64,000 nucleotides of DNA from Pseudomonas lurida. Lineage in GTDB: Bacteria > Pseudomonadota > Gammaproteobacteria > Pseudomonadales > Pseudomonadaceae. The notes under the pieces are model-generated. The model was not told the DNA's origin, ran no database searches, and saw nothing but the letters and a program-made list of their open reading frames with translations. Each line of letters opens with the position of its first letter. Within the stretch, counting starts at the first letter, position 1. The position numbers were made by a program, and so were the translations under genes. The stretch lies in NCBI RefSeq assembly GCF_013522705.1, contig NZ_JAAMRE010000005.1, forward strand, positions 62,001 to 126,000, given 5' to 3'. Positions 32,103-58,171 of the stretch are shown here, one piece after another.

Positions 32103-34382
32103 TTACTCCTCCAGCAAGGGCAACCGAAGGTTGAATACGGTGCCTTTACCCAATGTGCTTTCACAACTGATAACGCCCCTGTGACGCTCCACCACCGCCT
32201 TGACCATCGTCAGGCCCAGCCCCAGTCCTTCGCTGCCTTGGGCTGAATCAAAGCGCCGGTACTGGCTGAACAGTTCGGGCAAATCGTCTGGCGCTATGCC
32301 AGGGCCCTGATCGCTGATGCGGCATCCAAGCCAGCCGTCAACAGCGGCATGACTCAACCTGACGGTGGTACCGGAAGGTGAGTACTTGACCGCATTCTCA
32401 AGCACATTGAATAACGCTCGAGTGAGCAGCGACTGATCGGCCAACACCATGCCTTCATCCGCCTCATCCAGGTCGTGGACCAAGTGGATGCCTTTGAGCT
32501 GAGCAATTACTGCCACTTGGTCGAAGGCATCCATCACCAACATGGCAAACAGCGTCGGCTGGAAGTGATAGCCATCGGCCTCGGCTTTGGCCAACTGCAC
32601 GAATGACTCGGTGAGGCTCAACGCGCGTCGTACCTGCTGTTCGATCTGGGCAAATATCGGCGACTCGCTGCTGTGCACATCCAGCAATGCAAGGATCGCT
32701 GAGTGTGGGGCGCGCAAGTCGTGGGAAAGAAAGCGCAACATGGTTTCCCGATGCTGCTGGGCGTCACGCTCCTTACTCAGATCGGTAAGGCTTAATAGCC
32801 AGCCCAGGGCAAAATCGCCTTCGGCCGGTAGCAGGGGCGCAAGCTCCATGCGCAGGCTGCGCTGGTGGATATCGCGGAACTCGACCAGTTCCAGTTGCGC
32901 GAGGGCAGGGCGGACGCCATCGTGCAGCGGTGGATAACCCAGGTCGGCCAGTTGCTCCAGGAGATTTTCAGCGACCAGGTCATTGCCGAACACATTCCGG
33001 GCGATACGATTGGCCAGCAGAATATTGCCTTGCGGATCGGTGATCAGCGTCGCCACCGGCAGGCACTCCAGGCCATCGGCCATAAAGCGCCGGGTATCTC
33101 GTGTGCGGCTGACCGCTTGCTCCAGCGCGAAGATGCGCGACTGCAACACGTCGCCTCGGCTGGCAGGCGCACGGCGGCGTTCAGGCAGGACCTTGGGCTC
33201 GTCGTCCAGGCGCGCCAACTCCCAGCCGAAATAGGCGAGAATTACACTCAGTCGGCGCCAATTCCAGATCAGGTAGCTGAGCAACAAACCGATCAGGCAA
33301 GCGGCCGGCGACCACCAGTGCCCCATGCGTAACAACGTCCAGGCGCCGACCAACGCGATGAACATGCAGCCCAGCGTCATCCAGAGCGCATAGCGTGGCC
33401 GGTAGAGCAGCAACGCCAACAACAGCGCCACCAGTGAGGTCGCTATCAACGCCGCAAGCCATCCTGGAACATCTTCAATACTGCGACCTTGTAATAATCC
33501 ATTGAGTACGTTGGCCTGAATGTCCAGCCCTGCGGTAGTACCAGCCGTGGAAAAGAGGGGTGTAACAAAACGATCCCCCATTGCAGACGCGTTTGCCCCC
33601 ACCAGAATCAAACGGTCACGCAGTTGTGCCGGTGGCACCTCACCGTGCAATACGCTGACATAGGACACGCTGGGGAAGTGGCTATGAACAGGGATGGAGG
33701 GGATGCGGATCGCATGATCTCGGTGCCAGCGTTGCGGTGTCGATACCAGCGGCCCGCCGGGCATTTGTCGTGGTTCAACGGCCATTTGGTAAGCCAGCCA
33801 GGCAAGCTGCGGGACCATCACATCAGCTGGTCCTTCACGCAGATACACGCTGCGCACCACGCCGTCGCTGTCGGCTTCAACATTGATATGACCCAAGCCC
33901 CTGGCACATTTGAGTAATGGCAGCCTGTGCGCTTCGGCCTGGCCGTCGCCTGTGGAGTCGTCCTGCACCAAAGGCAGCACCACGTTGCCGGCGTTGCATA
34001 GCGCATCCGCCAGACGCTTATCGCCAGCGGGTTCTTCGGGCTCACTGAAGATCACGTCGAACAGAATCCCGGCCGGCTGCGCAGCGCTGAGGCGATCAAT
34101 CAGATCAGCATGCAGGGTACGAGGCCAAGGCCATTGCCCGAGTTTCTTGAGGCTGGGCTCGTCGATGGTCACCAGCAAAATACGCGGATCTACCGGCAAC
34201 GGCGTCAAGCGCAGCAGGCTGTCATACAGCGGGTTACTCAAGGCCAGCCCAGGACTCACCGACAGGTAGGCAGTTATAGGCAGCAGCAGCAAACCGATCC
34301 ACAGCCATTCACGCACCAACCCGCGGAACAAGCGCTGGGCATGGGTCGGTTGCCGCTTCTCGGCCTTACCCCAGAGCATCAT
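32103..34382 (-). CDS. CHASE2-domain sensor histidine kinase
   Basis: A 759-residue membrane kinase. One N-terminal membrane helix precedes a large periplasmic CHASE2 domain (PRILLVTIDEPSLKKLGQWP, ILVGANASAMGDRF). Three closely spaced membrane helices follow (about residues 310-375), then a PAS-like region. The kinase core has H-box FLSHDLRAPHSA, N-box NVLENAVKYS and G-box DQGPGIAPDD. It diverges from the response regulator gene at 34,800, so the two form a two-component pair. The signal is unknown. Confidence 0.92.
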   Translation of the reverse strand: MMLWGKAEKRQPTHAQRLFRGLVREWLWIGLLLLPITAYLSVSPGLALSNPLYDSLLRLTPLPVDPRILLVTIDEPSLKKLGQWPWPRTLHADLIDRLSAAQPAGILFDVIFSEPEEPAGDKRLADALCNAGNVVLPLVQDDSTGDGQAEAHRLPLLKCARGLGHINVEADSDGVVRSVYLREGPADVMVPQLAWLAYQMAVEPRQMPGGPLVSTPQRWHRDHAIRIPSIPVHSHFPSVSYVSVLHGEVPPAQLRDRLILVGANASAMGDRFVTPLFSTAGTTAGLDIQANVLNGLLQGRSIEDVPGWLAALIATSLVALLLALLLYRPRYALWMTLGCMFIALVGAWTLLRMGHWWSPAACLIGLLLSYLIWNWRRLSVILAYFGWELARLDDEPKVLPERRRAPASRGDVLQSRIFALEQAVSRTRDTRRFMADGLECLPVATLITDPQGNILLANRIARNVFGNDLVAENLLEQLADLGYPPLHDGVRPALAQLELVEFRDIHQRSLRMELAPLLPAEGDFALGWLLSLTDLSKERDAQQHRETMLRFLSHDLRAPHSAILALLDVHSSESPIFAQIEQQVRRALSLTESFVQLAKAEADGYHFQPTLFAMLVMDAFDQVAVIAQLKGIHLVHDLDEADEGMVLADQSLLTRALFNVLENAVKYSPSGTTVRLSHAAVDGWLGCRISDQGPGIAPDDLPELFSQYRRFDSAQGSEGLGLGLTMVKAVVERHRGVISCESTLGKGTVFNLRLPLLEE

Positions 34383-34799
34383 AGGTCACCGCGCCGGTGT
34401 TGGAGGAGGGTACTAAACATTGTCGTGGTTTCACTTCTGCTCGCGGGAAGCCCATTCTCGCCCAATCGGAAAAGTTTTCCTGCACGATGTTCATTGAGGC
34501 TCCGCCGTGGCGACTTGAAAGCGGTGAGGTGAGGGCGGCTCCGCTATGTGCACCGAGGAGTCTACGACGGCACATGTGTCGGCTGAGCCTTTTCCTTGCT
34601 ATCGAGAGTCGGTATCTTTCCTGCCTGGGTAGAAACGTTTTCCAATGAGTTAAGCACTCTTGGAAATGAGCCTACCGAGAGATCCAGGGGGGCGTTGGTT
34701 CTGAGCACAATTCTTCAGATTCAACGACCGGCATCTGCGCAGTACGTGCCTTGATGAGGACGACGGCTGCCGTACTCTTCAAGACGAAAGGACCCACCC
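34383..34799. promoter_or_regulatory. Divergent region between kinase and regulator genes
   Basis: The 417 non-coding bases hold a perfect palindrome GGAAAA-G-TTTTCC at 34468-34480. A related partial copy (AGAAACGTTTTCCA) lies near 34,630. They are candidate binding sites for the divergent response regulator. No supported gene is seen here. Confidence 0.4.
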
Positions 34800-35522
34800 A
34801 TGCGTGTCGCAATACTGGATGACGAACCCGCGGAATTACGCCGGGTGGAACAGACACTGCGACAAATCCCAGGTACTGCGGAACAGCCTTGGGCCCTGCA
34901 TTGTTTCGAGCGTGGGGAAGACCTGCTGCGTCAACTGCGACGGGAAACCTTCGATCTGTTGATCCTGGACTGGCAACTGCCGGACATCACTGGTATCGCA
35001 TTGCTGCGCTGGACGCGCGAACACATGGAATCGCCGCCTGCTGTGATCATGCTGACCAGCCGCGATGCCGAAAGCGATATCGTCACCGCGTTGAACAGCG
35101 GCGCTGACGACTATCTCAGCAAACCCTTTCGCCCTAATGAACTGAAAGCCCGCGTCAACGCAGTGCTCCGCCGTCACGGCCTGCAGAAATCCGCCACACA
35201 GGAAGTACAGAGTTTCAACGATCTGACCTTCGACGATGCAGAACTGACGGTTACACGCGCAGGTAAGCCGATCAACCTCACCGAACGAGAGTACCGCCTG
35301 GCCAGCTGTCTGTTCGCCAACCTGGCGAGGCCGTTGTCCCGCGAATACCTGTACGAACGCTTCTGGACCCATGAAGAAATGGTCTCATCCCGCCCGCTGG
35401 ATACCCATATCTACCGGTTAAGAAACAAGCTCGGTCTGACGGCGGATCGGGGTTGGCAACTGCTGACCATCTACGGTTATGGCTATCGTTTGGAGAGTGT
35501 GCCGGCCCCTTCCTCCAGCTAG
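34800..35522 (+). CDS. OmpR/PhoB-type response regulator
   Basis: A 240-residue regulator. The receiver domain has acidic pocket DDEP near residue 7, phospho-acceptor D57 in LLILDWQLPD and the SKPF lysine motif. A winged-helix output domain follows (LTEREYRLASCLF, DTHIYRLRNKLG). It is partner of the divergent CHASE2 kinase. Targets are unknown. Confidence 0.93.
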   Translation: MRVAILDDEPAELRRVEQTLRQIPGTAEQPWALHCFERGEDLLRQLRRETFDLLILDWQLPDITGIALLRWTREHMESPPAVIMLTSRDAESDIVTALNSGADDYLSKPFRPNELKARVNAVLRRHGLQKSATQEVQSFNDLTFDDAELTVTRAGKPINLTEREYRLASCLFANLARPLSREYLYERFWTHEEMVSSRPLDTHIYRLRNKLGLTADRGWQLLTIYGYGYRLESVPAPSSS

Positions 35523-35530
35523 GAATGACG

Positions 35531-35593
35531 ATGTTCCACGTGGAGCAATTGAAAAACCAGATTCAGCTGGTGAAAAAAAAAGGCCAACGCTAA
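35531..35593 (+). other. 20-codon frame spanning a parS-like site and terminator
   Basis: An ATG frame of 20 codons (MFHVEQLKNQIQ, ending KKGQR) runs from the parS-like site into the terminator hairpin. No ribosome site is evident. It is recorded because it is open, not because it is likely to be a gene. Confidence 0.15.
35533..35546. promoter_or_regulatory. parS-like site, one mismatch
   Basis: GTTCCACGTGGAGC differs by one base from the Pseudomonas ParB-binding palindrome GTTCCACGTGGAAC. It lies in the 3' region of the response regulator, just outside the transposon's left end. With the two perfect sites in recF it forms an origin-proximal cluster. Confidence 0.65.
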
Positions 35594-35610
35594 GAAGCGC
35601 TGGCCTTTTT
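35573..35610. terminator. Bidirectional terminator left of the transposon
   Basis: GGCCAACGCT and AGCGCTGGCC arms (one mismatch) are flanked by nine A and five T. Without the transposon this hairpin would lie between the convergent regulator and gyrB genes, so it is probably gyrB's original terminator, now displaced by 22.5 kb. Confidence 0.88.
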
Positions 35611-35628
35611 ACTTCGACGAGGGGTAAA

Positions 35629-35633
35629 CCGGA
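35629..35633. repeat. Target-site duplication, left copy
   Basis: CCGGA directly precedes the left transposon end and is repeated exactly at 58172-58176. Five bases is the duplication size made by Tn7-family transposition. Confidence 0.92.
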
Positions 35634-35907: not shown

Positions 35908-35932
35908 CTTTCTGTAGGTAACCTACAGAAAG
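35908..35932. promoter_or_regulatory. 25-bp operator palindrome, upstream copy
   Basis: Perfect 12-base arms (CTTTCTGTAGGT and ACCTACAGAAAG) around one A. The core TAGGTAACCTA recurs 60 bases downstream. The pair brackets a sigma-70 promoter. Confidence 0.8.
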
Positions 35933-35935
35933 TTA

Positions 35936-35964
35936 TTGCGGTTTGTGCAGAGGCCGGTTATAAA
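35936..35964 (+). promoter_or_regulatory. Sigma-70 promoter of the small HTH gene
   Basis: TTGCGG (35936-35941) and TATAAA (35959-35964) are separated by 17 bases. Operator copies sit just upstream of the -35 box and just after the expected start point. Confidence 0.75.
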
Positions 35965-35974
35965 TGCCTCTCCT

Positions 35975-35985
35975 TAGGTAACCTA
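35975..35985. promoter_or_regulatory. Operator palindrome, downstream copy
   Basis: TAGGTAACCTA, the 11-base core of the longer palindrome at 35908, lies about 10 bases after the -10 box, where bound protein would block transcription. Confidence 0.75.
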
Positions 35986-36009
35986 CCTACACACAGAGAG
36001 TGCAGCGAG

Positions 36010-36354
36010 ATGAACACCCACTACGATCCAAAAGCAGTTGGCGATGCCATCGATAACATCACCTCAGGTTTAGAGCGCGTGATGACCGGATTTGCCAACC
36101 TGAAAACGCTCTTGGCGCCTGTCCCCGATGCTTCCGATATCCCTGAGCTCGATCCTCGCGATCCTGCCAATAAGTTCGAGAGCGGCAAGCTGACCGATCG
36201 GGGCATTGAGGTGTGCTACCGGCTTTTTGATGCTGGAAAAAGTCGGTATGCCGTTGGTGCGGAAATGGAGATCAGCTTCGGCGCAGCAACCCATCGCTTT
36301 GAAGCGTGGAAGAAGGCAGGTGGCCTCGATCGCGAGAAGCTTCCACTGAACTGA
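36010..36354 (+). CDS. Small putative HTH protein, likely autoregulated
   Basis: A 114-residue protein I cannot name. The C-terminal half (LTDRGIEVCYRLFDAGKSRY, then VGAEMEISFGAATHRFEAWKK) looks like a helix-turn-helix: a ruler helix, a GKSRYAVGAEM turn and a recognition helix. The N-terminal half (DAIDNITSGLERVMTGFANL) is a plausible dimerising helix. It is the first cargo gene inside the transposon's left end and lies directly behind a promoter bracketed by two identical palindromes, so self-repression is likely. Whether it also controls cargo or transposition genes is open. Confidence 0.65.
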   Translation: MNTHYDPKAVGDAIDNITSGLERVMTGFANLKTLLAPVPDASDIPELDPRDPANKFESGKLTDRGIEVCYRLFDAGKSRYAVGAEMEISFGAATHRFEAWKKAGGLDREKLPLN

Positions 36355-36403: not shown

Positions 36404-36580
36404 TTCCAGAGAGGTTAGATGCGATGCCAGTCCAGAGGACTCACCTGCCTTCAAGGAGCGCTGTTGAGCGAGTTCACACAATAAAGGCCCTTCAGTAAAA
36501 GCCTTCGGACGCCATCCTATTTTCTAAAAACGCGAATCTCGCCGAAAAAGTACTGGGTAGGAGGGCAGAGTTCATGGAGC

Positions 36581-38136: not shown

Positions 38137-38787
38137 ATGAATACTTCAGATAGTAGGGAAGGTTCTCAAACAGACGCACCAGCAGACGGGAAGCCCGAGC
38201 CAGATTTACAACACCTGAAGGAGGATGTTACTGAGGTGCTCGGTGGTGCCCGACAATAGGCTGATGCGCAATTCGGCCAATACCGCGATACGGCTGCCGA
38301 TCAGATAGAGGCGCTGGCACAAGGAGCGAAAAGCTTCGTTTCCGAGCTGGAAGATAAGGACGCGCTGGGCATGTCCGATTATCTAACCGACATAGCTGAG
38401 TCCATGAATGGATTGGCGGGAAATCTTCGAGGGAAAAGTGCAGAGGAATTGCTTCACGACGCAGCCGACCTGGCTCGAAGCAATCCCGGTTTGTTCATCG
38501 CCGGCAGCATCGCCTTAGGCTTCGGCCTTTCGCGATTTCTAAAGGCAGGCAGTTCTGCCGCAGCGACAGTCACCGCGAGTCACGATCCGGCCGCGAGCAC
38601 CTCGACACCGCCCGCCGGAGGGTTTGGTGCACACCGACCTTACGAGACGTCCCCTCCATCGCCGTCCGATCCGCAACCTGGTTTGGCTACCGGCATCACA
38701 CCGACTTCGCCGAGTGAATCCGACCATCCCACGGATTTTACCGGAGCAACAACGTCGGCTTCGCCAAGTACGAAAGGAGCACTGTGA
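38137..38787 (+). pseudogene. Stress-operon first gene split by an amber codon
   Basis: An ATG at 38137 opens a frame that reads 40 codons (MNTSDSREGSQTDAPADGKP to VLGGARQ), hits TAG at 38257-38259, and then stays open in the same frame to 38787. The whole would be 216 residues. The part after the stop has charged helices, one membrane segment (LFIAGSIALGFGLSRFL) and a Pro/Ser/Thr-rich tail. An internal ATG at 38371 could yield a 138-residue product. The stop is a single-base change from Lys AAG or Gln CAG. It heads an operon with a holin-like and a DUF3618 protein, coupled by a TGATG overlap. Confidence 0.75.
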
Positions 38788-39215
38788 TGAACAGAGACGA
38801 TTCAGAACTGCCGGCGTCAAGACCGCTGGTCCAACCTGAAGACGCGTCGGTGGTTGGCCTGTTGCGACAATTATCTCGAGAAGTCCCCGCGTTGTTCACC
38901 AAGGAATTGGCGCTTGCCAAAGTAGAGCTTCAGTCCAGCCTCAACACGCTGAAGGCCGGCATCGCTGCGGTGGCGGGTGGAGCGATTGTGTTCTTGGCGG
39001 GCTTCATCATCCTGTTGATGTCGGCAGTCTACGGCTTGAGCCTGTTCATGGCACCGTGGCTAGCTGCTCTCATAGTCGGTGTTGTCGTGATGATCATTGG
39101 CTTCGCCATGCTGCAATCAGGAAAAAAACAATTCGAACCGTCCCACCTCAAGCCAGACCGTACCCTGGACGCTTTGAATAAAGATCAGGAAGCACTGCGG
39201 AGGAAAGTCTCATGA
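38787..39215 (+). CDS. Phage-holin-superfamily membrane protein (PF07332-like)
   Basis: A 142-residue protein with two long hydrophobic helices (about residues 58-83 and 90-112) between charged ends. An N-terminal helix reads LLRQLSREVPALFTKELALA. This matches the phage_holin_3_6 family found in chromosomal stress loci, where it is not a phage lysis gene. AGGAG precedes the ATG at 38787. Both ends overlap neighbours, so it is translated together with them. Confidence 0.82.
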   Translation: MNRDDSELPASRPLVQPEDASVVGLLRQLSREVPALFTKELALAKVELQSSLNTLKAGIAAVAGGAIVFLAGFIILLMSAVYGLSLFMAPWLAALIVGVVVMIIGFAMLQSGKKQFEPSHLKPDRTLDALNKDQEALRRKVS

Positions 39216-40033
39216 ACAGTGAAATGGATATCGAATCCGAAAAAAGCCCTGAGCAGATCGAGCGGGAAATCGATGCGCAACGTGCCAGCATCGGCAATAT
39301 AGTCGACAAGCTCGAAAGCAAGTTCACCCCAGGCCAGATGATTGATCAGGCGTGGGGCATGATGCAGAACAATGGCTCAATGTTCTTGAGTAACTTCGGC
39401 ACAAGCGTGCGAAACAACCCAGTACCCGCAGTGCTGACCTCGGTGGGTTTGCTATGGCTGATGATGAGCCAAAACCGGCCGCCAGTGCCGCAGCCAACCT
39501 ACCGAACGGGGCCGGATCAGGACAGGACAGGGGAATGGGCGGACGGCTTGGCAGAAGGCATCGGCAACGCCAAGGATCATCTGCATCAGACCGCCGATTC
39601 GCTAAAAGAGGGTTACCATTCGCTTAAGGGTAAGGCTGGCCATTTGAGCGACAACGTTGGCGAAGCGACCGATAATCTAAGTCACGCCATGCATGACGTC
39701 ACCGACCGGCTCACGCGCAATACTCAGGTTCTCGGGCAACAGTTCAATCAATTGCTGCGGGAGCAGCCATTGGTGGTGGCTGCTGCGGGTATCGCCTTGG
39801 GCGCAATTATCGGTGCCGCCTTGCCGACCACTACGACCGAACAACGTTACATGGGTAGAACCAGTGCGGGCTTGGTCGATAAAGTGAAGAAACAGGCCCA
39901 AGAGGGGTACGAAGCGGTTCGCGATACTGTGACAAAAACCACCGGTCACGTAGATGCTCGTGGCCCGAGTTCGACTCCCAATACCGCGACTAACACATCA
40001 GCGGATCTCTCAAGTGGTTTAGGTACGTCATAA
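39212..40033 (+). CDS. DUF3618 domain protein
   Basis: A 273-residue protein. The DUF3618 signature lies near the N-terminus (SPEQIEREIDAQRASIGNIV, then DKLESKFTPGQMID). A short membrane segment sits near residues 70-90 (VPAVLTSVGLLWLMM). A long amphipathic helix region (about 105-180) and a second membrane segment (LVVAAAGIALGAIIGAAL) follow. It starts inside the holin-like gene's stop (ATGA). DUF3618 proteins occur with holin-like partners in envelope-stress islands; their function is unknown. Confidence 0.85.
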   Translation: MNSEMDIESEKSPEQIEREIDAQRASIGNIVDKLESKFTPGQMIDQAWGMMQNNGSMFLSNFGTSVRNNPVPAVLTSVGLLWLMMSQNRPPVPQPTYRTGPDQDRTGEWADGLAEGIGNAKDHLHQTADSLKEGYHSLKGKAGHLSDNVGEATDNLSHAMHDVTDRLTRNTQVLGQQFNQLLREQPLVVAAAGIALGAIIGAALPTTTTEQRYMGRTSAGLVDKVKKQAQEGYEAVRDTVTKTTGHVDARGPSSTPNTATNTSADLSSGLGTS

Positions 40034-40049
40034 GCGGCGCTTCACCCGG

Positions 40050-40075
40050 GGAGGTCAGCAACTGGCCTCCTTTTT
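40050..40075 (+). terminator. Terminator after the DUF3618 gene
   Basis: GGAGGTCA and TGGCCTCC arms (one G-T pair) around GCAAC, followed by five T. The 470 bases from here to 40,549 hold no supported gene. Confidence 0.88.
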
Positions 40076-40549
40076 ATTCAAATGCGAGCAGGGAAATATC
40101 CTCTCCTAAGTCGCAAAGCATTCGGCAACGCCGGCGCGCCATTGACCTGCTGTTTTCCTTGACCAGGGAATCTTTGCGCATGAAGGCGAGAATCCTCCCC
40201 GTACCTGTTGCTCGGCGCCTGCACAGACCTAGTGTCCCGTCGTCGGCTCCAAAACTCTGGTATGTCATCGCCCACGGCTTTCTTTTGTTTGATCTAAAAT
40301 CCTTGATAGCGGATGACTTCACCTACGGCCTATGTAAGTCGCTTTAGCCCATCGGAGGTGGCGTCTTACCAAGACCACCCAAATTTTGAAAAAAATGTGA
40401 ACCAGTCAAATGTTCAGGCCTTGAAAGCGATTTTTTTGTCGCCAGAAATGTATCGTCTTGAACGTAGTGGTCTGAAGAGGATCCTATCTTCGCCACAGTT
40501 AAAACATTCGCGTGTCTTGCTCTCGGGAGACTACACAGGAGGACTTAAG

Positions 40550-40810
40550 ATGATTTCAACCCTGGAGCTACGCCGGATCATAGAGGAGAGTTTTCGACCA
40601 CTGGAGTGCCAATGCACTTTGATGCCTGGAAATTCGCTTCAGGTACGTGTGACTGATCCAGCGACTGGTAGTGTGGACCTGCTTGTCACTGGCATCTCGA
40701 CGCATACATTGGTCAGCCCGCGAGCCATCTCAGAGTTGATTGCTGAGCTTCGGTACGACCTCGACACAAACAAGCAAAAAAGCCTGGTAGGTATTTCTGC
40801 CGCCTGGTGA
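40550..40810 (+). CDS. DUF1652 family protein
   Basis: An 86-residue protein starting MISTLELRRIIEESFRPLEC. This N-terminus and the PGNSLQVRVTDPATGSVDLLVTGI strand region fit the small Pseudomonas DUF1652 family. The open frame extends 79 codons upstream, but a strong AGGAGG before the ATG at 40550 and family length favour the short form. Function unknown. Confidence 0.8.
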   Translation: MISTLELRRIIEESFRPLECQCTLMPGNSLQVRVTDPATGSVDLLVTGISTHTLVSPRAISELIAELRYDLDTNKQKSLVGISAAW

Positions 40811-40862
40811 GGCTCAGATAGTGCTGAGGGCTTGAGCCATTTTGAAGCCCTCAACACGCCCT

Positions 40863-41309
40863 CTAGGACATCCGCGCACCAGTTGGCTGTGCCGCAGGCT
40901 CTTCGACATCCATCCCTGCGACGGTCCCTGTGTCCGTACCGTGCAATTGCACCTCCTCGTTATCCCCCATCTTGCTGTAACGCTTGCGTAACTCGCGCAG
41001 CTCCTTGGTATCCAGATGATCCAATGAAAGGAAGGCGTTTTGCGCGTCGTTTGTTGCCCGGATCAGCTCATCGAGTTTGAGGTGCAAGATGTCGTTGTCC
41101 CTGTTCTGTGTGTTCTGAATGAGGAACACCATCAGGAAGGTGATGATTGTGGTCGACGTATTGATGATCAGTTGCCAGGTGTCGTTGTAGTGAAAGTACG
41201 GTCCGGTTAACGCCCAAGCGACAATCAGCAAAATAGCTGTCAGGAAGGTTTTCGAGCTGCCGGCCCAGTTAGAGAGTGCTTGGCAAAACTTTGCGAATTT
41301 CATGACCAT
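40863..41309 (-). CDS. Low-affinity iron permease family protein
   Basis: A 148-residue membrane protein. It has two hydrophobic helices (TFLTAILLIVAWALTG and LIINTSTTIITFLMVFLIQN) and the diagnostic NTQNRDNDILHLKLDELIRA segment of the Iron_permease family (PF04120). Bacterial members are not proven iron transporters. It may start two codons later (ATG at 41303). It sits with Mn catalase and a ZIP transporter, giving the island a metal and oxidative-stress theme. Confidence 0.88.
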   Translation of the reverse strand: MVMKFAKFCQALSNWAGSSKTFLTAILLIVAWALTGPYFHYNDTWQLIINTSTTIITFLMVFLIQNTQNRDNDILHLKLDELIRATNDAQNAFLSLDHLDTKELRELRKRYSKMGDNEEVQLHGTDTGTVAGMDVEEPAAQPTGARMS

Positions 41310-41639
41310 GAGTCCTAGTGGTAGATGACAGTTCGACCACGTACGCTCTCTGAAATTCTATGTTACATCTCCCAGCAGGGCTTCGATTTTTGCTCCCCGA
41401 AGACGTCCCGATCACTGATAGCAGTTGAGCCAACGAGCAGCGCAAAAGTTTGCGATGTCCGCACTCGGCGCCGACGACTGGCGGCAATTTTTTCCAAAAA
41501 TCCAATACAGAGCCGTTTGTCGCGGTGACTGAAAACAAATTGCAATTACTGCATCAGCTTACGCTTCAGATGTCTGTGGGCTCGCACCCGATCTTTCTCG
41601 GATGAGTATCGAGCCTCGCCTGACCTGAGGAGATTTGTC
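41310..41639. promoter_or_regulatory. Divergent region before the catalase gene
   Basis: These 330 non-coding bases separate the iron-permease gene from katN-like catalase. A GAGGAG ribosome site precedes the catalase ATG. No clear operator was found by eye. Confidence 0.4.
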
Positions 41640-42524
41640 ATGTTTCTACATAACAAGCGACTTCAATATACCGTGCGTGTCGCCGAGCCAAATCCGGGCT
41701 TGGCCAATCTGTTACTGGAGCAATTCGGCGGAGCACAAGGGGAGCTTGCAGCAGCATCGCGTTACTTTACCCAAGCGCTAGCCGAGGATGATCCTGGTCG
41801 AAAAGATCTGCTGATGGACATTGCGACCGAGGAGCTGAGCCACCTGGAAATTGTCGGCTCCATCATCGTCATGTTGAACAAGGGTGCCAAAGGCCGAATG
41901 GCCGAGGGCGTCGAAGAAGAGGGTGAGTTGTATCGGGCCATCAATGGCGCCGGTAACGACTCTCACATCACCAGTCTGCTGTACGGGGCAGGAGCACCGC
42001 TGATCAACTCGGCGGGCGTGCCATGGTCGGCAGCCTATGTCGATACGATCGGAGAGCCCACAGCTGATTTCCGCTCAAACATTGCCGCTGAGGCCCGCGC
42101 AAAAATCGTCTACGAGCGGCTGATGAATGTTACAGACGATCCTGGCGTTAAAGAGGCGCTCGGGTTTCTCATGACCCGTGAAATCGCCCACCAACTTTCC
42201 TTCGAAAAGGCACTGCACGCGATCCAGCCAAACTTCCCGCAAGGCAAGCTTCCCGGCATGCCGGAGTTCACCAACGTGTACTTCAATATGTCCCACGGGG
42301 AAGGCAGCACCCGTGGTCCGTGGAACCAGGGAGACGACTGGGAGTTCGTGGAAAACCCTGAGCCAGCGGTAGATGGCGGTGACGGTACCGCCAGTGTCCA
42401 GCTCAGCGCTGAGGAAGATGCGCTGCTGCTGGATATGAAGGCTCGAACCATGTCCGACCCGGACAGTAACCCTATCACTGGCGCCGATCTAGGTGCGGGT
42501 GTTCAAGGCCAACCAGAAGCTTGA
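41640..42524 (+). CDS. Manganese (non-haem) catalase
   Basis: A 294-residue di-manganese catalase that breaks down hydrogen peroxide in the cytosol. Metal ligands are visible as E35 in GGAQGELAAASRYF and E65-x-x-H68 in ATEELSHLE. A second pair lies in IAAEARAKIVYERL and REIAHQLSFEKAL. Length and C-terminal tail are those of the KatN/YdbD-type enzymes common in Pseudomonas stress islands. Confidence 0.95.
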   Translation: MFLHNKRLQYTVRVAEPNPGLANLLLEQFGGAQGELAAASRYFTQALAEDDPGRKDLLMDIATEELSHLEIVGSIIVMLNKGAKGRMAEGVEEEGELYRAINGAGNDSHITSLLYGAGAPLINSAGVPWSAAYVDTIGEPTADFRSNIAAEARAKIVYERLMNVTDDPGVKEALGFLMTREIAHQLSFEKALHAIQPNFPQGKLPGMPEFTNVYFNMSHGEGSTRGPWNQGDDWEFVENPEPAVDGGDGTASVQLSAEEDALLLDMKARTMSDPDSNPITGADLGAGVQGQPEA

Positions 42525-42528
42525 TCAG

Positions 42529-42559
42529 AACCGCACGTCGCAACAGCGTGCGGTTTTTT
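42529..42559 (+). terminator. Terminator after Mn catalase
   Basis: AACCGCACG and CGTGCGGTT arms, a 9-base loop, then TTTTTA. Confidence 0.9.
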
Positions 42560-42584
42560 ATCCATGCAATCAGAGGTACACAAC

Positions 42585-42746
42585 ATGAATTCGAATCCCG
42601 GCGTTTTAAACAATGACCTAGCGCAGTCCTTGTCCGATCGATTCAACGCTACCGCCACATCCTTTAACCGGACCGCTACGCGAATCGCTAAAACCTTGCG
42701 TCAGTCGACAGTCAGTTCTAATGGGAAGCGTTCAACCGGACGGTAG
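42585..42746 (+). CDS. Small hypothetical protein
   Basis: A 53-residue basic, Ser/Thr/Asn-rich protein (MNSNPGVLNNDLAQSLSDRF, later RIAKTLRQSTVSSNGK). An AGAGG site precedes the ATG at 42585; an earlier in-frame ATG is less likely. It ends eight bases before the ZIP gene, so it may be its translational leader. I do not recognise it. Confidence 0.5.
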   Translation: MNSNPGVLNNDLAQSLSDRFNATATSFNRTATRIAKTLRQSTVSSNGKRSTGR

Positions 42747-42754
42747 GAGGCGAC

Positions 42755-43684
42755 ATGTCTTTCTCCTCATCGTCCGCGAGAACTCCATTGCGCACTTGGT
42801 GGGGCATGGCGTCCAGTGGGGGTTGGCCAGGAGTCATATTCTGGGGGACGCTCTTGCTCGTAACGGGTCTGCTGTTGATCAGCGGTTACTCCGCGATGGT
42901 AGGAGCTGAAAAGGAAAATCTGCGCCTGGCCGCACTGGGTGGCCTGTCAGGATTTGGGGCGACCGCTTTGGGTGCTTTGGTGGCCATCGTCCTTCGCGAT
43001 ATCGCCTCGCGCACCCAAGACATCATGCTGGGATTCGCCGCCGGCATGATGCTGGCGGCCAGTTCCTTCTCACTGATCCTGCCGGGTATCGAGGCCGCTC
43101 AGGCGCTGTGTGGCAACCAGCTACTGGCCGCTTGTGTCGTTGTGTTTGGATTGGCCTTAGGCGTTGCGCTGATGGTTGGCCTAGATCGGTTTGTGCCACA
43201 CGAACACCAAGAAAGCGGCAGGCGCGGACCGGACTCTAAACGCATCAATCGCGTCTGGCTGTTCGTATTGGCCATCACCCTGCACAACCTGCCAGAGGGA
43301 ATGGCAATCGGCGTCAGCTTCGCCAATGGCGACATGAAAGTGGGCCTGCCGCTGACAACTGCCATTGCCATCCAAGACATTCCGGAAGGGCTCGCCGTTG
43401 CACTGGCTTTACGTGTCACCGGCGTCTCTGCTTGGCGGGCGGCGTTGATCGCCATCGGTTCCGGTTTGATGGAGCCCTTGGGCGCAGTGGTAGGACTGGG
43501 TGTATCGAGCGGCTTCGCCCTTGGCTATCCAATAGCCTTGGGCCTAGCAGCCGGCGCGATGATCTTCGTGGTGTCGCACGAGGTCATTCCTGAAACACAC
43601 CGCAACGGCCACGAGACGCCAGCGACCTTAGGGCTGATGCTTGGATTCGGGGTGATGATGTTCCTCGACACTGCGTTGGGATAG
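42755..43684 (+). CDS. ZIP-family divalent metal transporter
   Basis: A 309-residue membrane protein with about eight hydrophobic segments. It carries the ZIP metal-site motifs HNLPEGMAIGVSF in helix 4 and QDIPEGLAVALAL in helix 5. It also has a His/Glu-rich cytoplasmic loop (RFVPHEHQESGRR). Members move Zn, Mn or Fe into the cytosol; beside a Mn catalase, manganese is a reasonable guess but not shown. Confidence 0.92.
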   Translation: MSFSSSSARTPLRTWWGMASSGGWPGVIFWGTLLLVTGLLLISGYSAMVGAEKENLRLAALGGLSGFGATALGALVAIVLRDIASRTQDIMLGFAAGMMLAASSFSLILPGIEAAQALCGNQLLAACVVVFGLALGVALMVGLDRFVPHEHQESGRRGPDSKRINRVWLFVLAITLHNLPEGMAIGVSFANGDMKVGLPLTTAIAIQDIPEGLAVALALRVTGVSAWRAALIAIGSGLMEPLGAVVGLGVSSGFALGYPIALGLAAGAMIFVVSHEVIPETHRNGHETPATLGLMLGFGVMMFLDTALG

Positions 43685-43832
43685 CGGCATGAACACTTCA
43701 TCCGCGAATCGAAAAAATCTTGGAACGCCTCTTAAAAATATTGAGTCAGTTTTCATGATCGCCACGATGGCGGGCGAGTAAACCAAGCGCCACGCCTCGG
43801 GTAAACATCCAACGACCAGAAGGAAGTTAGAA

Positions 43833-44330
43833 ATGGCTAGAAAAACTGTTGAAGACTTGTTCATCCATGAACTCTCCGATGTTTACAGCGCCGAGAAGCA
43901 GATTACCAAAGCGTTGCCGCGCTTGGCGCGGGCCGCGACCAACCCACTGCTCGCCGAAGCCTTCACCTCGCACCTTGAAGAGACCCAAGGCCAAATCGAA
44001 CGCATCGATCAGCTAGTCGAACTCACTGGCCTGAAGCTCAAACGCATGAAGTGTGTTGCGATGGAGGGCTTAGTCGAAGAGTCCAAAGAGTTGCTCGACG
44101 AAATAGATAAAGGCGCGGTGCTGGATGCGGCGCTGATCGGTGCGGCGCAGAAGGTCGAACATTACGAAATCGCCAGTTACGGCACGCTGATCGCGATGGC
44201 TAAGCACCTGAAACTCGACGATGCGGCTGCACTGTTGCAAGCCACCCTCGCTGAGGAGAAAGGCGCCGACGAGAAGCTGTCGAAGATTGCCGAGCAAGGT
44301 GGTAACCAGGCGGCGACCCTCGAAAAATAG
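43833..44330 (+). CDS. YciF/YciE-like ferritin-fold protein (DUF892)
   Basis: A 165-residue four-helix protein: the N-terminal TVEDLFIHELSDVYSAEKQI, FTSHLEETQGQIERIDQL, and VEHYEIASYGTLIAMAKHL carry the carboxylate and His residues expected for a ferritin-like di-iron fold. The family is induced by stress in enterics, and its enzymatic role is unsettled. A terminator follows. Confidence 0.92.
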   Translation: MARKTVEDLFIHELSDVYSAEKQITKALPRLARAATNPLLAEAFTSHLEETQGQIERIDQLVELTGLKLKRMKCVAMEGLVEESKELLDEIDKGAVLDAALIGAAQKVEHYEIASYGTLIAMAKHLKLDDAAALLQATLAEEKGADEKLSKIAEQGGNQAATLEK

Positions 44331-44354
44331 AGACCTTTGAACTAGGTCGAATGC

Positions 44355-44389
44355 ACGCCACGGCGCATACGGTAGCCGTGGCGTTTTTA
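44355..44389 (+). terminator. Terminator after the YciF-like gene
   Basis: ACGCCACGGC and GCCGTGGCGT perfect arms with a 10-base loop, then TTTTA. Confidence 0.92.
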
Positions 44390-44467
44390 GACTAAGCCGA
44401 TTGTCGTGTTGTATGAACCTTACCCATTGCCTGTTCGCCCAACGTATACGAATGACGGAGGTGCATC

Positions 44468-44689
44468 ATGCAAACCGAATATCTTTGGATCGCCTGCGCA
44501 GGGATTCTTCTCCTGTTGGATCTGTGGGCACTGAACAGTGTCATCAGGAGCGATAAGCCTTCCGGAACCAAAGCAGGTTGGACAGCGTTGATCTTTCTGG
44601 CGCCCCTGATCGGGGTCGTAATCTGGGGTGTCGCAGGGCCGCGAGGCATCACCAAAGGGCCATCTTCGCCGGAACATAGCAAAGGATGA
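44468..44689 (+). CDS. PLDc_N-domain small membrane protein
   Basis: A 73-residue protein with two membrane helices (WIACAGILLLLDLWAL and WTALIFLAPLIGVVIWGVAG). It carries the WxxxIFLAPLIGxxIWxxxGPR pattern of the cardiolipin-synthase N-terminal domain, without the phospholipase part. Such free domains are common, and their role is unknown. It ends 10 bases before the next gene. Confidence 0.82.
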   Translation: MQTEYLWIACAGILLLLDLWALNSVIRSDKPSGTKAGWTALIFLAPLIGVVIWGVAGPRGITKGPSSPEHSKG

Positions 44690-44699
44690 ACTCACAGGG

Positions 44700-45260
44700 A
44701 TGGACACACCTGAGGTTAACGCTTTGCCAAGAATCCTGACTTCACAAACCAGCGAAGCCGAGCTAACCGCACACAACGCCCAGATGTTCGGGTCGCCCAA
44801 GGAGCGGCTGGAGTTTTATCGTCGTGAGATTCATTACGAAACGTCGATCTTGGCCAATCGGACTGATGCGTACTTGGCAGCGCAATCCTTTTTGGTGATC
44901 GCATTCGCGTCCTGTATGGGAAACCTCAACCCCGAGTGGGGCAAGCTGTTCACGCTGATCGTGCCTGCTTTTCTTGCACTGCTGGGATTACTCAGCACGC
45001 TTAACGCTTGGCCCGGCATTCGGGCAGCCTACGACATCATTGATCATTGGTACTACAAGCAGAGTGAGCTCTTGAGGAGCGAACCGGTGATGGGCATGGC
45101 CTATGATGAGTCTCCGCTGTTCTGCGAGCGAGAATCTACCCACAAGGGCTATCGCAAGGCACTGTTATTTTCTGTGCGCACACCTTGGATCTTCGCAACG
45201 TTTTGGATCGTGCTCGGATTCTGGTCAGTGCTCATCCAGCTCACAAAACCGTTCGGTTAG
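44700..45260 (+). CDS. Hypothetical membrane protein
   Basis: A 186-residue protein. A charged N-terminal half (FGSPKERLEFYRREIHYETS) precedes two membrane helices (about residues 60-100, AAQSFLVIAFASC and LFTLIVPAFLALLGLLSTL). A third lies near the end (TPWIFATFWIVLGFWSVLIQ). This resembles small predicted SLATT-like or channel-type membrane proteins, but I cannot assign a family. It probably shares a transcript with the PLDc_N gene. Confidence 0.65.
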   Translation: MDTPEVNALPRILTSQTSEAELTAHNAQMFGSPKERLEFYRREIHYETSILANRTDAYLAAQSFLVIAFASCMGNLNPEWGKLFTLIVPAFLALLGLLSTLNAWPGIRAAYDIIDHWYYKQSELLRSEPVMGMAYDESPLFCERESTHKGYRKALLFSVRTPWIFATFWIVLGFWSVLIQLTKPFG

Positions 45261-45283
45261 CTAACCACTCACCGTGTGATTGT

Positions 45284-45532
45284 TCAGGGTAAAGGGGAGT
45301 TTATAAGTTGCCCGCGAATGCGCAGCAGATCCTGCTGCGCTTCGGTACGGTTAGCATCGGCCAGCGCTTTAGCTTCAGTAAAATGCTCCCAGGAAACGGC
45401 ACTCGTCGAATCGCCCTCAAGAAGACTGTAGGCATATGCCTCCAGCCGATCCGCTTCGAAAAAGAAAGCAGCATTACGAGCGAGTTCATCATCGCCCTGC
45501 GAAACCACAGGCGGCGTCGTATCCTGATTCAT
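45284..45532 (-). CDS. Small hypothetical protein
   Basis: An 82-residue acidic, Ala-rich protein (MNQDTTPPVVSQGDDELARN, later EHFTEAKALADANRTEAQQD), largely helical. Its ATG overlaps the stop of the upstream gene by four bases, so both form one operon. GGAGG lies 12 bases upstream. Not recognised. Confidence 0.6.
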   Translation of the reverse strand: MNQDTTPPVVSQGDDELARNAAFFFEADRLEAYAYSLLEGDSTSAVSWEHFTEAKALADANRTEAQQDLLRIRGQLINSPLP

Positions 45533-45786
45533 GTTGTAACGGCCTCCGTCCAATCAACTTTGGTGGTTTCCCGCCATCTCACATCTGTCACGCCGAACCT
45601 TTCAGCCATAGGCTTGCTGAACACCTTGAGCGGTGCCTTCCCGGGTTTGGGAATAGGCGCCAAGTCCGCATCGCAACATGCCCAATGCCAGGCATCGGCG
45701 TTCCGCATTTTTGGCGAACGAATAACGAACGATTTCGGCTTCCCATGAAGCCGGTATTCAATGACGTACAGATCAGTGCGATTCAT
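45529..45786 (-). CDS. Small conserved Pseudomonas protein (DUF6555-like)
   Basis: An 85-residue protein starting MNRTDLYVIEYRLHGKPKSF, with RNADAWHWACCDADL and PMAERFGVTDVRWRE. I associate this pattern with the Pseudomonas DUF6555 group from memory. AGGAGGG precedes the ATG at 45786. The IS3 element ends only 30 bases upstream of the start, so the native promoter has probably been separated from this gene pair. Confidence 0.6.
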   Translation of the reverse strand: MNRTDLYVIEYRLHGKPKSFVIRSPKMRNADAWHWACCDADLAPIPKPGKAPLKVFSKPMAERFGVTDVRWRETTKVDWTEAVTT

Positions 45787-45823
45787 GAAACCCTCCTTTT
45801 GTTCATATGCAAAGGTGTAGTGG

Positions 45824-47007
<1,184 letters not shown>

Positions 47008-47083
47008 TCTCGCCTAAATGGGTGTCCGGTTTCATTAGACCACTACAAGTTTCTATAGTTCACTGTCTCGAACTTCCCCAAAA

Positions 47084-47245
47084 ATGGGGGGCGGCGAACA
47101 AAACTTGGATGACAACATGGCTGAATTGGAAGCCTTTTTTCATGATGAAATTCGTGTTAAAGAGGGAGAAGCTCGCCTGAGACAAGCGATGGAGTATAGT
47201 CAAGAATTACTGAAGGAGATGGCATCAAAGATGGGGGCAAAGTGA
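47084..47245 (+). CDS. Short hypothetical frame beside the IS
   Basis: A 53-codon frame (MGGGEQNLDDNMAELEAFFH, later VKEGEARLRQAMEYSQELLK), acidic and helical. The frame is open back to the IS boundary at 47,047, so it may be the surviving 3' end of a gene cut by the IS rather than a whole gene. No clear ribosome site is seen. Confidence 0.35.
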   Translation: MGGGEQNLDDNMAELEAFFHDEIRVKEGEARLRQAMEYSQELLKEMASKMGAK

Positions 47246-47290
47246 TTTGCTTCTGTTTTTGACAAGGGTGTTAACCTATTTTTTACGCTG

Positions 47291-47299
47291 TTATCCACA
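47291..47299 (+). promoter_or_regulatory. Perfect DnaA box inside the transposon
   Basis: TTATCCACA in non-coding DNA between the short frame and the hsp20 terminator. The 258 bases at 47,246-47,503 contain no supported gene. Confidence 0.4.
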
Positions 47300-47460
47300 G
47301 TGATTAACGGAGAATCAATTTAGGTTACAGCCCTCAATGCAACTGCGGCCTTGAGCCACCTAGGGCCGCATTTTGATCACCCTGCTTCGGATCATGCTCG
47401 GATCGATGTGGCAAAGCTCGCTCGATGGTAAAACCTTCGATTTACATTCAGCCAATAACG

Positions 47461-47488
47461 ATAAAGGCGCTCCGAGGAGCGCCTTTAT
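47461..47488. terminator. Bidirectional terminator of hsp20
   Basis: Perfect 13-base arms (ATAAAGGCGCTCC and GGAGCGCCTTTAT) around two bases. Confidence 0.88.
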
Positions 47489-47503
47489 TGTTGGTGAGGC
47501 TAT

Positions 47504-47962
47504 TTACTGTACGCTGACTGGCCTCGAATTCGCTTGAACAGACTCACCGATCGCGATGCGCTTAGGCTTCGCCTCTTCCGGTACAACCCTAAGCAAATCG
47601 ATACTCAGCAACCCGTTAGAAAGCTTTGCTCCCTGCACTTCGATATGGTCCATCAAGCGAAACGACAGACGGAAAGCACGCTGAGCAATACCTTGATGGA
47701 GATAGGTGACTTCAGCGTTATTTTCTCGCTTATCGCCGGCGACCATTAGAACGCCTTTTTCCACCTGGATTTCCAGATCTTCCTCCGCCAAACCGGCGAC
47801 TGCGATGACAATTCGGTACTGGTCATCACCATGCTTTTCTACGTTATGGGGGGGATATGACGTACCGGCCTCACTACGAAGCGCCGACTCGAAAAGGTCG
47901 TTGAAACGATCAAAGCCAACCGAGTGACGGAACAGAGGTGCCAACGAAAGGGTAGTTGCCAT
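47504..47962 (-). CDS. Small heat-shock protein, Hsp20/IbpA type
   Basis: A 152-residue alpha-crystallin-domain chaperone: N-terminal LFRHSVGFDRFNDLFESAL, the crystallin core PPHNVEKHGDDQYRIVIAVA to LSNGLLSIDLLRVVPEEAKP, and a C-terminal tail with PKRIAI as the I-x-I-type anchor. AGGAG precedes the ATG at 47962, preferred over an upstream start. It holds unfolding proteins for refolding. It is cargo that fits the stress theme of the island. Confidence 0.93.
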   Translation of the reverse strand: MATTLSLAPLFRHSVGFDRFNDLFESALRSEAGTSYPPHNVEKHGDDQYRIVIAVAGLAEEDLEIQVEKGVLMVAGDKRENNAEVTYLHQGIAQRAFRLSFRLMDHIEVQGAKLSNGLLSIDLLRVVPEEAKPKRIAIGESVQANSRPVSVQ

Positions 47963-48151
47963 GGCTAAATCTCCTGAGTTTTCTCCAAGTGATTTGAGTC
48001 GCGACCCGCTTTCGGCATCGCGCAAAACCCTAGGTAGGTTCCGGAGATAAAATTTCAAGACCCACTTAAAACAAATTTTTTGCCCGCGATTGTGTACCTG
48101 CCGGTCAACAGATTGCCCACAAAGACGGTGACTTGAGCAGTAACAAGTAAG

Positions 48152-48164
48152 ATGATGGCATCAT
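48152..48164. promoter_or_regulatory. Palindrome before the Beta-protein gene
   Basis: ATGATG-G-CATCAT is a perfect 13-base palindrome ending at a TAGAAT -10-like box (48164-48169), 30 bases before the start codon. It is a candidate operator. Confidence 0.5.
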
Positions 48165-48193
48165 AGAATCAAAAACAATCCTAAGGAGAGGAA

Positions 48194-49222
48194 ATGCCGT
48201 TTCAACACCCCGAGTATCCGCCCTACATTCCGGTCATCAAATGGCAAAAGGCTGAGCAAAAGGCATTGGCAGCCATCGATGAACAGCTCGTTGATCACGT
48301 CTGGCCATGCATTGAAGTCAGAGGCGTCACGCATCATCAGTTATTGATGTCCGAGGTGTATCACTATTGGAAAGGTACAGCGCTCGTCGACTATGCGGAT
48401 CCGAGCGGCCGATTGGGTGGCCGTCGAATGGAGGTGTTTGAGTCATTTCTTTCGGTCGCCGGGGCCAAGAATTACCCCATCATTCCGGTGTTGGACTCTC
48501 GCGACGCTGTCGAAATCGGCGACAGGATGAAACAGCTCCTGATGACCTTTGACTCGGTCGTTGTCCGCCTGCGAATCGACGGCGTTTACCTCTCCACCGA
48601 CCACTTCAAACAGGCCCAGGACGCATGCAGGATCCTGAGCGGACTGAACATTTCGCCACGGTTGATGATCGACATGGGTGAATGCCCTGCGCAATGGACC
48701 GCTCCTGATTTGAAGTCCTTTTCCGCAGTGCTGCGAGACATGAAAGGTTGCGGCTACAGCACGGTGCACCTGACGTCAGGAGCTTACCCAGCGAGCCTCA
48801 CAGATGTGTCGGCAATGGCTACTTACGATCGGGACGACTGGCGGCTCTGGGGAGAGCTGAAGACGATCGCTTCAGATTTACAGGTGGGGTATTCCGACTA
48901 CGGGATACTCTCGCCCAAATGGACGGAAGAAGTCCTCAAGAAAATCGCCAAAAAAGTCGCACTGCGGTATACCCGCGATGATAGCTGGCTCATCCTGAAA
49001 GCCGCCGGCAAGACCAAACAGGACTCGATCGACCTTTCGGTCATTTTGATCACGACCTACGCCAGTGACTTCAAGGGCGCGACTTATTCTCTGGGGGATC
49101 GATTGATGGCCACCCGGGCGGATTCAAAGGTACCCGATCGAGAGAAGAAAGGTGGAGCGTCCTCTCACCTAACCGAAGCATGGATCCATCACATTGCTTA
49201 CGTCGTCAAAGACCAATACTAA
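48194..49222 (+). CDS. Phage T4 Beta-protein family protein
   Basis: A 342-residue protein. The opening YIPVIKWQKAEQKAL, the internal YPIIPVLDSRD and VVVRLRIDGV strands and the SPRLMIDMGEC stretch fit the Beta_protein family (PF14350), named after a T4 protein. The fold looks like an alpha/beta barrel. It has no known activity, but bacterial copies are often found in defence-rich islands beside sce7726-type genes, as here. AGGAG precedes the ATG. Its 3' end overlaps the convergent neighbour by 17 bases. Confidence 0.8.
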   Translation: MPFQHPEYPPYIPVIKWQKAEQKALAAIDEQLVDHVWPCIEVRGVTHHQLLMSEVYHYWKGTALVDYADPSGRLGGRRMEVFESFLSVAGAKNYPIIPVLDSRDAVEIGDRMKQLLMTFDSVVVRLRIDGVYLSTDHFKQAQDACRILSGLNISPRLMIDMGECPAQWTAPDLKSFSAVLRDMKGCGYSTVHLTSGAYPASLTDVSAMATYDRDDWRLWGELKTIASDLQVGYSDYGILSPKWTEEVLKKIAKKVALRYTRDDSWLILKAAGKTKQDSIDLSVILITTYASDFKGATYSLGDRLMATRADSKVPDREKKGGASSHLTEAWIHHIAYVVKDQY

Positions 49223-49796
49223 AGAGATCTTGAGGCACTTCTTCTGACGAAGCCTCACCTCTTTTGAGCAGGTAACTACGCACCGTCTGGCGCAACTCGT
49301 CGAGTGTAAGCACTTGCGCAACCCGATCTTGCAGCATGTACAGACTTCTACCCCGCCAGCCTCTCACAGCGCCACGGCTCTCCAGAACGCTAAGGCATTC
49401 CTCTCGTTTGAGAAGAGTCGCGAGGACTTCAGGTTCCTGACCTTTGTTAGGTTTGGCACGTCGTACTTGCTTGAACCCAGCATGCTCATGCTCGGGAACC
49501 AATAGGATTCCCCACCATTGCGGCAGCATGGGCATCGCTTTCTTGAGGTGTCGCTCGGTAGTTACCAGGGTGACGTGATCAAATACTCTCGCGTATCGGG
49601 ACCCTTGTCCCAGCAAACGCTTGAGCGAATCCCCCTCGCTCTTGATCTCGTAGCAATGCATGTCGTAAGCATCCACGACGTCGGCTCGGATCTCTCCGCC
49701 ACTGAGCTGCAACTCCTCAAGGAGCATGCCCGACATACTGCCGCGTACACAGTCCAGGTGGTGCGCCAATGCTCGTTTGATTTCTGCCTCACGCAT
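49206..49796 (-). CDS. sce7726-family putative nuclease
   Basis: A 196-residue protein. The segment GGEIRADVVDAYDMHCYEIK has an Asp (D39) followed by E50-I51-K52, the layout of a PD-(D/E)xK nuclease core. Upstream is the helix AEIKRALAHHLD. This matches the sce7726 family. The ATG at 49796 (MREAEIKR) is preferred over one 14 codons upstream. It is divergent from the HTH gene at 49,914 and convergent with the Beta-protein gene. Nuclease activity is inferred. Confidence 0.78.
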   Translation of the reverse strand: MREAEIKRALAHHLDCVRGSMSGMLLEELQLSGGEIRADVVDAYDMHCYEIKSEGDSLKRLLGQGSRYARVFDHVTLVTTERHLKKAMPMLPQWWGILLVPEHEHAGFKQVRRAKPNKGQEPEVLATLLKREECLSVLESRGAVRGWRGRSLYMLQDRVAQVLTLDELRQTVRSYLLKRGEASSEEVPQDLFSIGL

Positions 49797-49888
49797 TATC
49801 GTTGCCTTGAAATGAAAAAATACTGCGGACAGCCGCAAAGTCTAACCCATCAGGGCGCAAACGCCTCGTGACACGTAGGGTTTGGATC

Positions 49889-49925
49889 TATGCAAATATG
49901 CTAACATTCTATCATGAATTGCATA
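49889..49925. promoter_or_regulatory. Inverted repeat over the HTH gene start
   Basis: TATGCAA (49889-49895) and TTGCATA (49919-49925) face each other across the start codon, in the gap shared with the divergent sce7726 gene. The HTH protein may bind here and control both directions. Confidence 0.5.
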
Positions 49926-50243: not shown

Positions 50244-50280
50244 AAATGATTGACGACGCAGCAGTACACAGGAGGGGTCC

Positions 50281-51318: not shown

Positions 51319-51324
51319 AAAGCT

Positions 51325-57532: not shown

Positions 57533-57618
57533 GACAGAGCAACAAAAAAAGAAGAAATTGCGCGTGTTGTGTCTAAGCAATCACGAGCTGGTACTGTTTT
57601 TTCTTTTGTTGCTCTGTC
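57533..57618. repeat. Long inverted repeat upstream of tnsA
   Basis: GACAGAGCAACAAAA (57533-57547) and TTTTGTTGCTCTGTC (57604-57618) are perfect 15-base arms around a 56-base centre. The arms extend imperfectly through GGGA and TCCC on the outside. It lies in the leader of the tns operon and could form a structured RNA or bind a regulator. Confidence 0.7.
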
Positions 57619-58164: not shown

Positions 58165-58171
58165 TCCTACA

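Follow-up and report, generated by a model that had tools for sequence, protein, structure and literature searches.

Plasmids and phages encode small HTH regulators that repress their own genes, KorA and the Cro-like proteins among them, and type II antitoxins likewise repress their own operon. For Tn7-like elements, PMC9938897 describes CvkR, a MerR-type repressor of type V-K CRISPR-associated Tn7-like transposons that represses cas12k and tnsB directly. The gene described here lies just inside the left end of a Tn7-like transposon in Pseudomonas lurida, within a stretch of 64,000 nucleotides that was analysed as a whole (the window, to whose numbering all coordinates refer unless another locus is named). 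It encodes a 114-aa protein that is most likely a small dimeric transcriptional autorepressor acting at its own two-operator promoter, which is the best explanation of the locus as a whole.

Both systems have a small DNA-binding repressor from a Tn7-like element and a conserved palindromic motif, with binding predicted in our case; they differ in that no comparable site is present at the tns genes here. Identity with CvkR or another MerR protein was rejected, as there is no MerR match in Pfam or NCBIfam and the predicted HTH is C-terminal, whereas the MerR wHTH is N-terminal. The protein shares with KorA and Cro-like regulators its short length, a dyad operator over its own promoter and carriage on a mobile element, but it has no match in Pfam, PHROGs or NCBIfam and no second target promoter in the genome. 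The likeness to type II antitoxins lies in autoregulation through a promoter dyad, and the difference in the lack of a recurring adjacent partner. The family is unnamed and new; its regulatory logic is ordinary, of the textbook kind.

A Tn7-like transposon beside gyrB

The transposon occupies positions 35634-58171 (22,538 bp, no strand assigned), has the termini TGTAGG...CCTACA and is inserted beside the gyrB stop codon. A 5-bp target duplication, CCGGA, is present on both sides of the termini, and a genome of the same species (G194) contains the empty site: its locus L021 matches 34060-35633 and then 58168-59676, and reads ...AAACCGGAATTAG... across the junction. An earlier note on this DNA had placed the small gene at the left end of the transposon, and the uninterrupted site in L021 together with CCGGA on either side of the element shows that this placement is right.

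The right part of the element encodes TniQ (52039-53850), a TniB/TnsC ATPase, TnsB and TnsA, all on the minus strand. Pfam matches in this tns region are Tn7_TnsA-like_N (4.3e-8), Mu-transpos_C (1.3e-5), TniB (1.6e-29) and TniQ (6.6e-10). With genes for TnsA, TnsB, TnsC and TniQ (TnsD), TGT...ACA termini and a 5-bp duplication, the element is a member of the Tn7-like group. Tn7 itself inserts downstream of glmS, whereas the element described here adjoins the stop codon of gyrB.

The left flank in the window comprises glyS, gmhB, plsC, a sensor kinase and a response regulator (34800-35522), and the right flank gyrB, recF, dnaN and dnaA, with the element between the response regulator and gyrB. 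Most of these gene names are our presumptive assignments, and we take the order to be that of the Pseudomonas chromosome. Only a few bases separate the insertion point from the stop codon of gyrB. Other Pseudomonas also carry left ends of this type, several of them adjoining the response regulator or gyrB, and these recurrences suggest a gyrB attachment site for this element type. A search of open-licence papers gave no passage on gyrB-targeted Tn7-like elements, and the passages considered from PMC8649781, PMC8473136, PMC10293859 and PMC12452197 do not name gyrB as a site.

The cargo at 38371-51966 is of a stress type, with holin-like and DUF3618 proteins, a Mn catalase, DUF892, HSP20, a Beta protein and an IrrE-like peptidase. 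An IS3-type transposase ORF is located at 45824-46666 within the element, and a similar fragment adjoins the small gene in a related locus, L045. Exact TTCACANAATA repeats, which presumably resemble TnsB-binding sites, occur at 35640, 35748 and 36473, with the small gene between the second and the third. The 14-mer CGAAAAAGTACTGG is identical at 36543-36556 and 57671-57684, near both element ends and in the same orientation, and a 15-bp inverted repeat (GACAGAGCAACAAAA / TTTTGTTGCTCTGTC, starts 71 bp apart) spans 57533-57618 upstream of tnsA.

The small gene and its protein

The ORF is found at 36010-36354 on the plus strand, 376 bp inside the left end. A search of one genome per species, in which the closest named relatives of the protein were from Pseudomonas, yielded 32 confirmed loci, of which 12 are short genes standing alone, one is a stub (L066) and 19 encode longer proteins. 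The three closest short genes are those of P. rhodesiae (L044, 95% identical), Pseudomonas sp. AKS31 (L045, 85%) and P. parasichuanensis (L046, 70%); an earlier search of 194 relatives had matched the small gene in four. The ORF is under purifying selection (dN/dS 0.086/1.58 against L045, where dS is near saturation, and 0.019/0.15 against L044). Given these three relatives and the comparison with L045, we take the ORF to be a real gene, and its sequence behaves as one.

No family for the protein was found in Pfam, PHROGs or NCBIfam, nor any relative among PDB sequences; the single Pfam match, Myb_DNA-bind_8, falls below its cut-off. An AlphaFold2 model (13 sequences, pLDDT 85) has helices at residues 7-35, 63-74, 79-86 and 90-102, and the predicted fold is a long helix with a C-terminal three-helix HTH (63-102). 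Among solved structures Foldseek matched none at E <= 0.001, and its best rows, all weak, are mostly HTH domains of unlike families; VIA-align reached Z 6.0 with a wide range of dissimilar HTH proteins, its best rows again being mostly HTH domains. Membership in the LuxR/NarL-, Lrp- or paired-type HTH families was considered in the light of these Foldseek and VIA-align results and the sub-threshold Pfam score. Matches limited to a generic HTH among PDB folds are not evidence of a new fold. The gene had been described as small and HTH-like, a description that holds for a real ORF with a predicted three-helix HTH.

Palindrome, promoter and two operators

A perfect 25-bp palindrome, CTTTCTGTAGGTAACCTACAGAAAG (35908-35932, no strand assigned), with 12-bp arms around a 1-bp centre, encloses operator 1. 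It is the longest perfect palindrome with a loop of 0-1 in the window, where the next best has 9-bp arms, and the best 9-bp-arm dyad in the 150-bp upstream region was equalled by one of 200 dinucleotide shuffles. The -35 hexamer TTGCGG (35936-35941, plus strand) reads TTGCAC in L045, and the -10 hexamer TATAAA (35959-35964, plus strand) has the same letters in L044 and L045; the two are spaced by 17 bp. Measured against shuffles, the promoter score is not above chance (13 of 100 for the window, 12 of 100 for L044 and 34 of 100 for L045), and the putative promoter is convincing through its conservation, not its bare score. Both the perfect palindrome, here the best in the window, and the 17-spaced pair of hexamers are as the earlier note had reported them.

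Comparison of relatives gives a conserved operator of 15 nucleotides, about TGTAGGTARSYTACA. Operator 1, TGTAGGTAACCTACA (35913-35927, plus strand), is immediately upstream of the -35 hexamer, and a related site is present in L044, L045 and L046. Operator 2, TGTAGGTAGGTTACC (35977-35991, minus strand; GGTAACCTACCTACA on the plus strand), is just 3' of the inferred transcription start. The earlier note had seen here a second TAGGTAACCTA core. A related second site is indeed present, but TAGGTAACCTA overlaps it off the conserved register and was rejected as its definition: conservation in L045 and L044 and equal centre spacing identify the minus-strand 15-mer at 35977-35991 as the conserved unit. 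A search of the 5.73-Mb draft genome (98 contigs), which had been proposed as a check, located TAGGTAACCTA exactly at 35915 and 35975 and nowhere else. The operator centres are 64 bp apart in all three loci measured (the window, L044 and L045).

Conservation of the operators

The sites are TGTAGGTAGCCTACA and TGTAGGTAGGTTACC in L044, TGTAGGTAGGTTACA and TGTAGGTAGGTAACT in L045, and TGTAGATAGGTTACA in L046, upstream of whose gene a clear second operator is absent. Aligned over 17 bp, operator 2 is identical at 17 of 17 positions in L044 and 15 of 17 in L045, and operator 1 at 14 of 17 in L045. Against the same locus the -10 hexamer is identical at 6/6 positions and the spacer at just 5/17; by alignment, the operators are conserved while the promoter spacer has diverged. 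The DNA of L045 was also recovered in part as L016 (genome G306). The gene there is inverted within its related element and lies some 1.5 kb from the left terminus, but it keeps both operators at the 64-bp spacing; the dyad therefore goes with the gene, not with the element end. Short C-terminal stubs of the small gene are present in L012 (4176-4250, genome G099) and L066 (2950-3057, P. fragi). Since the stub in G099 stands behind the response regulator, this genome probably had the small gene formerly and has largely deleted it since.

Beyond Pseudomonas, a symmetrised matrix built from six Pseudomonas sites was used to scan 130 bp upstream of 14 genes. The sites of L044, L045 and L046 are among those used for training, and the other 11 genes, mostly alphaproteobacterial, were held out (L047-L055, L003 and L004). 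A site at the equivalent promoter position, -82 to -104 from the start, was found in five of the 11. Background tiles from the same contig equalled these scores in 0 of 305 cases for L047, L048 and L051, 0 of 253 for L049 and 2 of 305 for L050; the corresponding counts among 300 dinucleotide shuffles were 0 for L047 and L048, 1 for L049, 5 for L050 and 22 for L051, a control that is middling for L050 and weak for L051. The remaining six (L052, L053, L054, L055, L003 and L004) gave no match to the matrix, and there the operator has changed or the gene is regulated otherwise. According to the earlier note, a palindrome lacking upstream of homologues would refute the proposal; sites are present at all three other full-length Pseudomonas genes and at the five held-out relatives.

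The TGTAG half-site, a pentamer picked after the sequences had been seen, occurs 10 times in six of the 11 non-Pseudomonas promoters where 2.7 are expected (0 of 500 shuffles), and the pentamer GTAGG shows no enrichment beyond Pseudomonas (5 against an expected 3.9, with 163 of 500 shuffles). L003, on an R. phaseoli plasmid, has its own perfect 9-bp-arm dyad of different sequence 5' of the gene, CATCCTTAA-N5-TTAAGGATG, and CCTTAAN5TTAAGG occurs at <=1 mismatch once in this 81.9-kb plasmid. Of 15 upstream regions compared, those of the window, L044 and L003 are the only ones with a 9-bp-arm dyad beyond chance at the 5% level. To judge from these comparisons, some members of the family share the layout, and the sequence within it drifts. 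No phage record matched the protein at E 0.01; viral contigs contained one relative, L101, with a different N-terminus, and the matrix finds no operator in its positions 4600-5000 (best 3.1).

Longer relatives with the same C-terminal HTH

In 19 of the 32 loci the HTH is the last part of a longer protein, and over the C-terminal stretch these proteins share 42-53% identity with that of the window. The long relatives (L056-L065, L067-L075, L005 and L006) are mostly alphaproteobacterial and carry RNxxxH in their N-terminal half. This motif, which is known from HEPN ribonucleases, is present in all 20 long proteins examined (18 of the 19, plus those of the plasmid loci L005 and L006). Of six long proteins scanned against Pfam, two gave a HepT-like score, below the cut-off, and Foldseek gave no confirmation of a HEPN fold. 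That the long relatives are HEPN-like by motif is a lead, not a result. They share the C-terminal HTH with the short proteins but differ in length, about 239-371 aa by chosen starts, and in their upstream regions: none of the 20 has a convincing operator (best scores <=5.8), and thus the operator goes with the short genes.

Target range and alternative explanations

The 14-mer TGTAGGTARSYTAC, which operator 2 matches without mismatch, was found at <=1 mismatch in the genome only at the two operators; at <=2 mismatches there were 70 matches, those of the operators included, compared with 143 for a reversed control. When the element was scanned with the matrix, the operators scored 23.6 and 15.7 and all non-overlapping sites at most 10.6. 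Neither a regulon nor a tns operator was seen in the genome mismatch search and the element matrix scan, and with no further operator copies in genome or element the protein does not have the profile of a KorA-like regulator of several promoters. An all-against-all blastp of ORFs found no conserved adjacent partner gene in 14 loci, and a type II toxin-antitoxin module was rejected on this ground. The ORF groups shared among these loci consist of frames that overlap the gene itself out of register, of host genes in the flanks, or of genes whose distance from it varies; one group, which we take to be restriction-modification-like, is present in three of the 14 at unlike distances.

The position of the gene had earlier been read as a hint that it controls the element. 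Such a protein would bind the TGTAGGT terminus or a tns promoter in addition to the operators and so tune transposition. Both termini do begin with TGTAGG, the letters of the operator half-site, the gene does sit close inside the left end between the TnsB-site-like repeats, and in G306 it is again near the left terminus of a related element. However, no other site in the element approaches the operators in score, and some genomes with a related TnsB and the same left terminus lack the gene. The terminus TGTAGGTTCACA is also found in L022 (G258), L023 (G105), L025 (G216), L026 (G118) and L027 (G058), and with one change in L028 (G006); a search of these six genomes did not yield the small gene. 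TnsB had a match in 12 of 15 genomes, with at least 47% identity in six (G000, G004, G006, G118, G216 and G306; single stops were read through in G004, G118 and G216). Five of the same 15 have the small gene: it is whole in G000, G004, G025 and G306, whereas G099 has a stub. Among the six with a related TnsB it thus occurs in G000, G004 and G306 and is missing from G006, G118 and G216. The gene and TnsB are on different contigs in G004, and their linkage there is therefore not established. Without a comparable tns site, and with half of the related-TnsB genomes lacking the gene, the hint is not upheld, and we regard control of the transposon as very improbable.

Two further readings concern the promoter itself. 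The protein might activate its own promoter, or form a two-state switch, rather than simply repress; operator 1 is just upstream of a weak -35 box, TTGCGG, and its centre, about -51 from the inferred start, is at a position that activators also use. A dimer on operator 2, at about +6 to +20, would nevertheless block the polymerase, and this site is conserved as well as operator 1, which makes activation unlikely. Palindromes in intergenic DNA such as this can mark terminators or element ends, so the dyad might instead terminate the upstream gene, belong to the transposon end, or have arisen by chance. This is barely credible, given that no T-run follows the palindrome on either strand and that the inverted gene of L045 retains both operators, equally spaced, at about 1.5 kb from the terminus. 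The most likely reading is autorepression by a member of an unnamed HTH family, whose gene is carried as cargo close to one end of a Tn7-like element.

Proposed function and significance

Because the promoter is bracketed by matching sites, a layout also present at some relatives, the protein most likely switches itself off; conserved operators on the gene's own promoter are found in Pseudomonas and in five of the 11 held-out relatives. In the mechanism that we propose, dimerisation would be through the predicted helix 7-35, and the TGTAG half-sites of the 15-bp dyad would be recognised by the C-terminal three-helix HTH (63-102). One dimer would bind operator 1, adjoining the -35 box on its upstream side, and a second would bind operator 2 and block RNA polymerase. 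The 64-bp centre spacing corresponds to about six helical turns and would place both dimers on one face of the DNA, so that cooperative binding or a small loop may be possible. The gene would thereby hold its own level low and constant. The strong repressor-operator pair of unknown family put forward in the earlier note is thus a likely pair and its family is indeed nameless, with DNA binding and repression as predictions. The protein is most likely cargo, retained for a function or for targets absent from this genome.

A wider reading is that the short genes are a family of solitary single-target autorepressors that mobile elements have spread through the Gamma- and Alphaproteobacteria, with a DNA-reading module in common with the longer HEPN-like proteins, and that a resident copy silences the operator-bearing genes of an incoming element. 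We consider this decidedly unlikely; if true, it would amount to immunity-like cross-talk between mobile elements. For the family itself, a group of proteins without a name gains a testable function, with an operator that is partly common to Pseudomonas and Alphaproteobacteria, and the compact two-operator promoter could serve as a tool. For the transposon, the analysis tells nearness to its end apart from control of the element.
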